From Anaerolineaceae bacterium (lineage in GTDB: Bacteria > Chloroflexota > Anaerolineae > Aggregatilineales > Phototrophicaceae): 64,000 nt of DNA. This document shows positions 18,700 through 22,377 of the stretch, one piece after another (position 1 is the stretch's first letter; every line of letters begins with the position of its first letter). The stretch is from assembly GCA_026708325.1 (NCBI GenBank), contig JAPOVC010000009.1, positions 1 to 64,000 of the forward strand. The letters are read 5' to 3'. A program made the position numbers and the translations under genes. The notes below the pieces were generated by a model, which saw only the letters and a list, made by a program, of their open reading frames with translations, ran no database searches and had not been told where the DNA came from.

Positions 18700-19734
18700 C
18701 TAACGGAAAGGCGGCGCGTACATCAGACCGCCCTCCGTCCACAGGGCATTTATACCGCGTTCCAGGTTAAATGGCGGCACATTCAGGTTGCGCGCGAAGA
18801 TTTCGCCGTAGTTGCCGACCTGGCGGATGACTTCCACCATGAAGTCGTTGGCGATGCCGAGGTAAGAGCCGGAGGCGTTGCCGTTCTGACCCAGCAGGCG
18901 CTGGATGGAGGGGTCGTCGCTGTCGAGGAAGTCGTCGACGTTGGCGCTGGTGATGCCATGTTCCTCGGCGGTCAGGAGGCCGAAGACGGTCCAGGCGATG
19001 ATCTCGGCGAATTGCGGGTCGGACTGCGGCGAAACCGGACCGAGCGGTTCCTTGCTCAGCGTAATCTCCAGTATCTTGTGCACTTCAGGTTCCGGGGCGG
19101 TGGCGTGACGCGCCAGCAGGGCGGACTTGTCGCTCGTCCAGGCCTCACAGCGGCCGTCGAAGTAGGCCTGCCAGGCGGAAATGGCGTCAGGGAAGACGAG
19201 AATGGCGGTGTCCAGACCGCGAGCCAGCACCGCGTCGGTGATGTTGAGTTCGGTCGTGGAGCCCTGTCCCACGCAAATCGAGGCGCCGTCCAGGTCCTCG
19301 ATGCTGTCGATCCCGCTTGCGACGCGCGTGCCGATGCCCTGGCCGTCATAGAAGGTGGTGGGGCCGAAGATCGCGCCCCAGACGGCGTCGCGGCTGAGAG
19401 TCCAGGTGGTATTGCGCGACAGCATGTCGACTTCACCGCCTTGCAGCGCGGCCTGACGTTCGGCGCCGACCAGGGGTCGGAAGGAAATGGCGTTGGCATC
19501 GCCCAGCAGGGCGACGGCCACCGCGCGGCAGATGTCGATATCAAAGCCCTGATACTGACCGGCGCTGTTGACGGCGCCGAAGCCGACCAGATGGGCATTG
19601 GAGCCACAGACCAGCTTGCCGCGGGCGAGCACGGATTGCGTGACGGGCCCGTGGGCCCCGATGTCCTGGGCGAGGGCCACGGCGGCCGGGAGCAACACGA
19701 TCAGCAACAGCAGGGGCAGGTGCAGGCGTGTCAT
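18700..19734 (-). CDS. aapJ: Amino acid ABC transporter substrate-binding protein (AapJ type), copy 1
   Basis: 344 residues with a Sec signal (LLLLIVLLPAAVALAQD). The two-lobe fold is typical of AapJ: VLARGKLVCGSNAHLVGF, GFDIDICRAVAVALLGDANAISFRPL, DMLSRNTTWTLSRD, GQGSTTELNITDAV, and the C-terminal RLLGQNGNASGSYLGI. It captures L-amino acids outside the membrane. ATG 19734 has only a weak ribosome site. It lies 27 bp from copy 2. Its last 110 residues are almost identical to copy 2 while the N-terminal lobe differs. Confidence 0.93.
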   Translation of the reverse strand: MTRLHLPLLLLIVLLPAAVALAQDIGAHGPVTQSVLARGKLVCGSNAHLVGFGAVNSAGQYQGFDIDICRAVAVALLGDANAISFRPLVGAERQAALQGGEVDMLSRNTTWTLSRDAVWGAIFGPTTFYDGQGIGTRVASGIDSIEDLDGASICVGQGSTTELNITDAVLARGLDTAILVFPDAISAWQAYFDGRCEAWTSDKSALLARHATAPEPEVHKILEITLSKEPLGPVSPQSDPQFAEIIAWTVFGLLTAEEHGITSANVDDFLDSDDPSIQRLLGQNGNASGSYLGIANDFMVEVIRQVGNYGEIFARNLNVPPFNLERGINALWTEGGLMYAPPFR

Positions 19735-19761: not shown

Positions 19762-20796
19762 TTAACGGAAAGGCGGCGCGTACATCAGGCCGCCCTCCGT
19801 CCACAGGGCATTGATGCCGCGCGCCAGGTTAAAGGGCGGCACACTCAGGTTGCGCGCGAAGATTTCGCCGTAGTTGCCCACCTGGCGGATGACTTCCACC
19901 ATGAAGTCGTTGGCGATGCCGAGGTAGGAGCCGGAGGCGTTGCCGCCCTGACCCAGCAGGCGCTGGATGGAGGGATCGTCGCTGTCGAGGAAGTCGTCGA
20001 CGTTGGCGCTGGTGATGCCATGTTCCTCGGCGGTGAAGAGGCCGAAGACGGTCCAGGCGATGATCTCGGCGAACTGCGGGTCGGACTGCGGCGAGAGGGG
20101 CGTGCCGGGTTCCTTGCTGAGCAGGATATCGAGAATCGCGTGGGCGGCAGGGTCGCTGGAGGTGGCGTGCAGGCCGATGATGCTGGCGCGGTTGGCCGTC
20201 CAGGCCTCGCAGCGGCCCTCGAGATAGGCGTGAAAGGTGGAAGTCAGGTCAGGATAGCCAAGGACGGCGATGTCGAGGCCGCGCGCCGAGGTGACATCGG
20301 TGATGTTCAGTTCGGTGGTCGTGCCATGCTGGACGCAGATGGCGGCGCCGTCGAGTTCGTCGATGGTCGAGATGCCGTATTCGGCGCGGGTGCCGATGCC
20401 CTGGCCGTCATAGTAGGTGGTGGGGCCGTAGATGACGCCCCAGGTGGTGTCACGGCTGAGCGTGCGGGTGGTGAGGCGGGAGATCAGGTCGACCTCGCCG
20501 CCCTGGATGGCCGCCTGGCGCTCGACGCCCCTCAGGGGCCGGAAGGTGATCGCGTCCGCGTCGCCGAAAATCGCCACGGCGATGGCGCGGCAGACGTCGA
20601 TATCGATCCCTTCAAAGATACCGGCGTCGTCGATGATGCCAAAACCGGGGTACTCAAAGGGCACCCCGCAATTCAGGTGACCCCGGTCGAGGACGGCCTG
20701 CATGACAGGCCCCCGGACGACGCCATCCTGCGCGAGGACGGCGGCGGCCGGGAGCAACAGTGTCAGCAGCAGCGCGACAGGTCCTGCGCGTGCCAC
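19762..20796 (-). CDS. Amino acid ABC transporter substrate-binding protein (AapJ type), copy 2
   Basis: 344 residues, signal VALLLTLLLPAAAVLAQD. It has the same family motifs as copy 1, with changes in likely ligand contacts: GVPFEYPGFGIIDDAG against GSNAHLVGFGAVNSAG, and DLISRLTTRTLSRD against DMLSRNTTWTLSRD. This suggests different amino-acid specificity on a shared permease. The start is GTG 20796, a few bases after a small terminator-like hairpin (20803-20819). Confidence 0.92.
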   Translation of the reverse strand: MARAGPVALLLTLLLPAAAVLAQDGVVRGPVMQAVLDRGHLNCGVPFEYPGFGIIDDAGIFEGIDIDVCRAIAVAIFGDADAITFRPLRGVERQAAIQGGEVDLISRLTTRTLSRDTTWGVIYGPTTYYDGQGIGTRAEYGISTIDELDGAAICVQHGTTTELNITDVTSARGLDIAVLGYPDLTSTFHAYLEGRCEAWTANRASIIGLHATSSDPAAHAILDILLSKEPGTPLSPQSDPQFAEIIAWTVFGLFTAEEHGITSANVDDFLDSDDPSIQRLLGQGGNASGSYLGIANDFMVEVIRQVGNYGEIFARNLSVPPFNLARGINALWTEGGLMYAPPFR

Positions 20797-20823: not shown

Positions 20824-21858
20824 TTAGCGGAAGGGCGGGCCGTAGAGCAGACCACCGTCGGTCCACAGGGCGTTGATGCCGCGACCGAGGTTGAAGGGCG
20901 GCACGCCGAGGTGACGATGGAAGATTTCGCCGTAGTTGCCCAGCTGGCGGATCACCGTGACCATGAAGTCGTTGGGGATGCCCAGGTAGGAACCGGAGGC
21001 GTTGTCGTTCTGGCCCAGCAAACGCTGGATGGTGGGGTCGTCACTCATGAGGAAGTCATCGATGTTCTCGCTGGTGATGCCGGCTTCCTCGGCGTTGATC
21101 AGGCCGAAGACCGTCCAGGCGACGATGTCGGCGAACTGCGGGTCGGACTGGGGCGAGAGCGGGCCCAGCGGCTCCTTGCTGAGGGTGACGTCCAGCACCA
21201 TGTGCTGGCTGGGGTCAGCGGAGGTGGCGTGGAGGGCGGCGAGGCTGCTCTTGTCCGTCGTCCAGGCTTCACAGCGGCCATCGAGATAGGCCTGCCAGGC
21301 GGCGGCGATGTCCGGCTGGGCCAGGATGGTGATATCCAGGCCGCGCGCGGCCACCGCGTCGGTGATGTTGAGCTCGGTGGTCGTGCCCTGGGTGACGCAG
21401 ATGGACGCGCCGTCCAGTTCTTCGATGGTGGTGACGCCCAGATCGACGCCGGTGCCGATGCCCTGACCATCGTAGAAGGTGGTCGGGCCGAAGGTGGCGC
21501 CCCAGACGACGTCACGGCTCAGGGTCCAGGTGGTGTTGCGCGACATCATGTCAATTTCGCCACCCTGGATGGCTGCCTGACGTTCGGCGGCCGCCAGCGG
21601 GCGGAAGGAGACGGCGTTGGCATCGCCGAGCACGGCCGCGGCGACGGCGCGGCAGATGTCGATGTCAAAGCCCTCGAATTCACCGGCGTCGTTGACGACA
21701 CCAAAGCCGGCGAGTTGCTGGTTGACGCCGCAGACCAACTCACCACGCTCCATGATCCGCTGCGTAACAGGGCCCAGCACCACGTCGTCCTGCGCGAGGA
21801 CGCCGACGCCGGAGACCAGCAACGAAAGCAGGATAATTGCGGACAGCATCTTGGCCAT
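20824..21858 (-). CDS. Amino acid ABC transporter substrate-binding protein (AapJ type), copy 3, operon-first
   Basis: 344 residues, signal MLSAIILLSLLVSGVGVLAQDD. Motifs are GELVCGVNQQLAGFGV, GFDIDICRAVAAAVLGDANAVSFRPL, DMMSRNTTWTLSRD and TQGTTTELNITDAV. This set of residues is closest to classical general L-amino-acid binding proteins. The start ATG 21858 has a strong site (AGAGGAAAGGAACC); an in-frame ATG at 21936 would lie inside the leader inverted repeat. It is the first gene of the six-gene importer operon 21.9-14.1 kb. Confidence 0.94.
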   Translation of the reverse strand: MAKMLSAIILLSLLVSGVGVLAQDDVVLGPVTQRIMERGELVCGVNQQLAGFGVVNDAGEFEGFDIDICRAVAAAVLGDANAVSFRPLAAAERQAAIQGGEIDMMSRNTTWTLSRDVVWGATFGPTTFYDGQGIGTGVDLGVTTIEELDGASICVTQGTTTELNITDAVAARGLDITILAQPDIAAAWQAYLDGRCEAWTTDKSSLAALHATSADPSQHMVLDVTLSKEPLGPLSPQSDPQFADIVAWTVFGLINAEEAGITSENIDDFLMSDDPTIQRLLGQNDNASGSYLGIPNDFMVTVIRQLGNYGEIFHRHLGVPPFNLGRGINALWTDGGLLYGPPFR

Positions 21859-21896
21859 GGTTCCTTTCCTCTCCATAAACTTTGTCTCAGGTACGC

Positions 21897-21953
21897 GTAC
21901 GCTTCTGCGCGTGGCGCCCATCGCTGCGCGCCGCATTACCCGCAGAAGCGTAC
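21897..21953. promoter_or_regulatory. Inverted repeat in the aap operon leader
   Basis: GTACGCTTCTGCG (21897-21909) and its exact complement CGCAGAAGCGTAC (21941-21953) are separated by 31 bases. That spacer holds a nested GGCGC/GCGCC pair. One arm overlaps the -10 box and expected start of the putative promoter. It could be a leader RNA hairpin or a pair of operator half-sites about 44 bp apart. Confidence 0.6.
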
Positions 21954-22016: not shown

Positions 22017-22295
22017 CTAACCTGCAGCGACTGCCTGGCCGGCCAGATACTTTTCGAAGATGCCGCGGATCTCGCCCTCTTCGGCGTGACGACCCGTCTC
22101 TTTCTTCGAATACAGCAACTCACCGTTCACCACGAACTCGAACAGGCCACCGCTGGCCGGAATCAGATTCCAGGATCGGACGTGCGCCAGAAGTTCCTTG
22201 TCACCGAGCAAATCTGCCGCCAAACTGACGGCTTGCGGGGTGTAGTTTCAAGAGGCGCAATAGGTCAGGGTGATATCGAGCGTTCCGTTCTGCAT
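22017..22295 (-). CDS. SelT/SelW/SelH (Rdx) family protein, candidate selenoprotein with in-frame TGA
   Basis: The frame from ATG 22295 (ribosome site AAGGAGA, 8-base spacing) reads MQNGTLDITLTYCAS, then TGA at 22250-22248, then NYTPQAVSL and on to a stop at 22017. That is 92 residues if TGA is selenocysteine. The motif becomes C-A-S-U at the exact place of the family's redox C-x-x-C/U. The rest (RSWNLIPASGGLFEFVVN, KKETGRHAEEGEIR) is standard SelW/Rdx thioredoxin-like. A SECIS-like hairpin follows 21 bases after the TGA. Conventional annotation would call only 22017-22223. Role: thiol redox, partner unknown. Confidence 0.8.
22216..22232 (-). promoter_or_regulatory. Bacterial SECIS-like stem-loop
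   Basis: Minus-strand GCCGTC-AGTTT-GGCGGC forms a six-bp stem (one G-U) with a five-base loop whose second base is G. The loop begins 22 bases after the TGA. Published bacterial SECIS models ask for a loop G in the first two positions and a 16-37 base spacing, so it fits. Confidence 0.65.
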
Positions 22296-22377
22296 CACCA
22301 GTCTCCTTTCCCTTATGACGAATCGAACAAGGCCATTCGCTTCATGAAGGCGTCGCAAGACGGCATTCATGACACGC

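Follow-up and report, generated by a model that had tools for sequence, protein, structure and literature searches.

Gene structure and reading frame of the selW-like locus

The window, by which we mean the whole analyzed stretch of 64,000 nucleotides, harbors on its minus strand a selW-like gene of the Rdx family at 22017–22295, comprising 92 codons and a TAG stop when TGA is translated as selenocysteine (U). The frame opens with an ATG at 22295, with GGAAAGGAGA ahead of it and a Shine–Dalgarno-like AAGGAGA at 22302–22308 on the same strand; purine-rich sites of the GGAG type are also located upstream of most selW homologues. It closes at TAG 22019–22017, and the sole interruption along its length is the TGA at 22250–22248 (minus strand), codon 16 of 92, which occupies the second position of the CxxC/CxxU redox motif, here Y-C-A-S-U (C13-A-S-U16). 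Conservation of this codon and the presence of Cys at the same place in CxxC relatives argue for its reading as selenocysteine. An earlier note made from the DNA letters had described a SelW/Rdx frame from 22295 to 22017 whose second redox position is a TGA; the sequence agrees with it in every detail. The same note predicted that standard gene callers would report a 68-residue fragment; the ORF list under table 11 indeed holds a 68-aa ORF from TTG 22223, which is all that remains of the family domain. Taken at face value, this ORF would allow the TGA to be a genuine stop followed by a downstream start at TTG 22223, but the resulting 68-residue product would be devoid of the first strand and of the redox motif, and residues 1–16 (YCxxU), upstream of the TGA, are conserved, so that we consider a genuine stop highly improbable.

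Family assignment and predicted fold

The product of 22295–22017 is a SelW/Rdx family protein. It scored 49.3 bits against the Pfam Rdx profile (PF10262; cut-off 22.6) and 48.7 bits against TIGR02174 (SelT/SelW/SelH; cut-off 34.2), and phmmer comparison with PDB sequences matched Atu0228 (2fa8) and other SelW-related structures. The AlphaFold2 model, built with Cys replacing Sec, reached a mean pLDDT of 83 and exhibits a strand at residues 6–13 followed by a helix at 19–30. Its best PDB matches were 2fa8, 2oka, 3dex, 2ojl, 2obk, and 2p0g, with mouse SelW (2npb) ranking lower, and the comparison with 2fa8 (TMq 0.73, E 4.8e-7) identified a SelW-like thioredoxin fold. The closest solved structures are Cys-type Rdx proteins (Atu0228/2fa8 and relatives), which share the fold but bear CxxC where the present protein bears CxxU. 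The CxxC/CxxU motif follows the first strand, and columns 13 and 16 are both invariant; the alignment of column 16 with the Rdx family, which the earlier note had proposed, found C or U there.

Conservation of the TGA codon across relatives

Viewed in one genome alone, a frame whose only defect is one TGA might be taken for a CxxC Rdx gene with a nonsense mutation, arisen either in a pseudogene or through a sequencing or assembly error. In a comparison set of 61 genomes (the genome itself and 60 relatives), 27 carried TGA at exactly the same selW codon, all within one order, with protein identities of 46–99%. The 26 other genomes were separately assembled and extend down to 46% protein identity, there is no second lesion in the frame, and the conservation of the TGA across genera refutes the pseudogene or error reading, which we regard as extremely improbable. 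Loci with the TGA codon were found in Anaerolineaceae/Anaerolineae MAGs (95–99% identical) and in Ardenticatena, and the same TGA also occurs beyond the phylum, in Acidimicrobiia, Acidobacteria, and Kroppenstedtia guangzhouensis; the search for this TGA in related genomes, suggested beforehand, therefore succeeded in 26 further relatives as well as in other phyla. In a sample of 400 genomes of the phylum, 182 had a match, many of them with an in-frame TGA, although some of the TGA counts include the terminal stop and hence do not translate into an exact tally of Sec forms. Cysteine occupies the TGA column in the Cys forms examined (L042, L047, and L048), and the two genomes with Cys forms alone (G015 and G029) gave no selA match.

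Selenocysteine machinery and the meaning of TGA

The source genome (3.3 Mb, 96.5% complete) possesses the complete set of SelA, SelB, SelC, and SelD, namely selA (548.8 bits), selB (351.8 bits, confirmed as SelB and not EF-Tu), a tRNA-Sec with anticodon TCA (UCA), and selD (370.6 bits), the latter in a frame with its own in-frame TGA. A second selB match, on contig 8, was rejected as EF-Tu. The Sec machinery that the earlier note expected the organism to own was thus found in full. The best FdhA match in the genome is free of an in-frame TGA, so the Sec trait is not explained by formate dehydrogenase. Across the comparison set, selA was matched in 26 of 27 genomes with the TGA, as opposed to 14 among the remaining 34 (Fisher p = 5.6e-6, with no correction for kinship). 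The lone TGA genome with no selA match is 68% complete, and G036 is counted among the 26 with a selA fragment that lies at a contig end and scores slightly below the cut-off.

An in-frame TGA is also the usual sign of a genome-wide reassignment of this codon in a lineage, for example to Trp or Gly. The neighboring arsC gene, however, ends in TGA, and seven selW homologues combine an internal TGA with a terminal TGA stop in the same gene, which excludes a simple genome-wide reassignment. Moreover, Cys is the only other residue in the column, and the genome encodes tRNA-Sec(UCA), SelA, SelB, and SelD, leaving reassignment with a vanishingly small probability.

The SECIS hairpin

A bSECIS hairpin, GCCGTC-AGTTT-GGCGGC, lies within the coding sequence at 22232–22216 (minus strand), as indicated by folding, synonymous-codon conservation, and pair counts over 27 sequences. 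It starts 15 nt past the TGA, and the AGTTT loop, with G as its second nucleotide, is reached after 21 nt; the hairpin and its distances had been given in the earlier note and are confirmed by the sequence. The published bSECIS rules comprise a loop of 3–9 nt, a stem of 4–16 bp, a G among the two leading loop nucleotides, a distance of 16–37 nt from the UGA, and an MFE ≤ −7.5 (PMC13188914). The isolated hairpin, with a 6-bp stem, a 5-nt loop, a distance of 21 nt, and −9.3 kcal/mol, conforms to all of them, and in the larger fold of a 51-nt stretch (−13 kcal/mol) an extra A-U pair produces a 7-bp stem with a GUU loop, in which G is first. Folding against the bSECIS model, another check raised at the outset, thus turned out in favor of the element, in which constraint at the RNA level is present too.

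The fit of the hairpin alone is nevertheless weak evidence, since about 11% of the TGAs in the window have a comparable hairpin: 205 of 1788 TGA triplets (11.5%) precede a conforming one when a stem of ≥ 6 bp, the bSECIS rules, and an MFE ≤ −7.5 are applied in this GC-rich window. The fold z-score (−1.3) was judged uninformative, and comparative tests were used instead. Among homologues with the same amino acid, the same codon was used at positions +7 to +10 after the TGA (GTC AGT TTG ACG) with frequencies of 1.00, 0.98, 0.84, and 0.81, where the codon usage of the genes themselves predicts 31, 23, 26, and 33%; most other selW codons, outside the hairpin, were near the expected synonymous identity. 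The serine of the hairpin is encoded by AGT in 22/22 cases, and elsewhere in the same genes AGT is the rarest serine codon (7/118). Over the 27 sequences, 98.8% of the stem cells were paired, a value that fell to 21–53% when the partner was slid by 1–3 columns, and two stem pairs exhibited two-sided changes from C-G to U-A. This covariation is limited in extent, as the stem has to encode protein at the same time. The hairpin sequence (GTCAGTTTGACGG) is largely fixed within the order. A search of the whole window at Rfam gathering thresholds returned nothing, the element reaching the threshold of no Rfam family. These sequence comparisons indicate that the hairpin is under constraint at the RNA level, and the comparative evidence comprises the strong part of the SECIS case.

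Proposed reading of the gene

We conclude that the selW-like gene is real and that its UGA codon 16 is almost certainly read as selenocysteine via the hairpin, yielding a SelW/Rdx oxidoreductase. The earlier note’s view of the TGA is supported by the machinery, the conservation of the TGA, and the constraint on the hairpin, as far as sequence can tell. We consider the case settled because the conservation of the TGA and of the hairpin codons, the Sec machinery with the co-occurrence of selA, and the use of TGA as a terminal stop as well coincide. We infer Sec insertion at codon 16 from the conservation and the machinery, and a redox role from the motif and the fold. In the proposed mechanism, the hairpin just 3′ of the UGA would be bound by SelB with Sec-tRNA(UCA), selenocysteine would be delivered at codon 16, and translation would run on to the TAG. 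The product would be a small oxidoreductase with a thioredoxin fold, belonging to the SelW/Rdx family. Its C-A-S-U pair would probably form a selenenylsulfide, to be reduced by a cellular thiol system.

Gene neighborhood

The selW-like gene is followed on the same strand by a gene for an amino-acid ABC transporter binding protein (PF00497) at 20824–21936, one of three tandem binding-protein paralogues in the window (20824–21936, 19762–20796, and 18700–19734). The arrangement extends to much of this Anaerolineae family: a binding-protein gene of this kind was directly downstream of selW on the same strand in 14 of the 27 TGA loci. These 14 are not all independent, three of them being from the window’s own genus. 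Should the two genes form a true operon, SelW might conceivably help to import or reduce a thiol or seleno-amino acid, for instance cystine or selenocystine, an unlikely proposal which, if true, would provide a physiological context for bacterial SelW. Between selW and the binding-protein gene, we also observed a very stable hairpin at 21897–21953 with perfect 13-bp arms (GTACGCTTCTGCG; −41.8 kcal/mol, z −5.2) and no T-run; among the loci compared, its arm sequence occurs only in the window’s own.

Other genes with an in-frame TGA

Targeted family searches for further selenoprotein genes in the genome revealed several more frames with an internal TGA. A PrxQ/BCP-like peroxiredoxin gene (L066 298–678; C13:85197–85577, plus strand) bears TGA at the peroxidatic position (TYG-U-TKQACGF) and adjoins a TGA-free AhpC/TSA homologue; it is probably a second selenoprotein gene. 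A protein with a TlpA/thioredoxin-like domain (L067; C5:35302–35622, plus strand), with TGA in WTFG-U-INC, a strong hairpin after it, and an SH3-like C-terminal extension judged by eye, is likewise a probable selenoprotein. An AhpD/peroxidase-related protein (L068; C20:136101–136250, plus strand) has an in-frame TGA in an HCRY-U-T motif. The TGA of selD is located in the N-terminal G-U-A-S-K segment (L018 1501–2436; C27:58870–59805, minus strand), and selD is itself probably a selenoprotein gene.

Relation to known SelW proteins

Mammalian selenoprotein W (SELENOW; mouse 2npb) belongs to the same fold family and shares the CxxU redox motif. The eukaryotic SECIS is located in the 3′ UTR, whereas that of the present gene is inside the coding sequence, just past the UGA. 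The SelW-like selenoproteins of bacteria (Sargasso Sea, GOS, Geobacter, and Symbiobacterium, among others) share with it the Rdx/SelW domain, the CxxU motif, an in-frame UGA, and a bSECIS hairpin; the present host differs in being an uncultured Anaerolineae bacterium. Such CxxU proteins were reported as bacterial selenoproteins from the Sargasso Sea (PMC1088965), with ten cases among sequenced bacteria (PMC1794560), and outnumber every other selenoprotein family of the Global Ocean Sampling data (PMC2398784). The SelW-like CxxU family has been known in bacteria since 2005; the present gene adds another member, and the understanding of the family is unchanged by it. That SelW genes are overlooked by annotation is already documented (PMC4607533), and here the annotation is corrected for a selW-like gene that callers would truncate to 68 residues or miss altogether. 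In 2006, a survey put the number of selenoproteins in Chloroflexi at only three; SelW matches that contain TGA are spread widely through the phylum and go far beyond that count. Within the present Anaerolineae family, SelW of the Sec type occurs commonly, as does a complete Sec trait.
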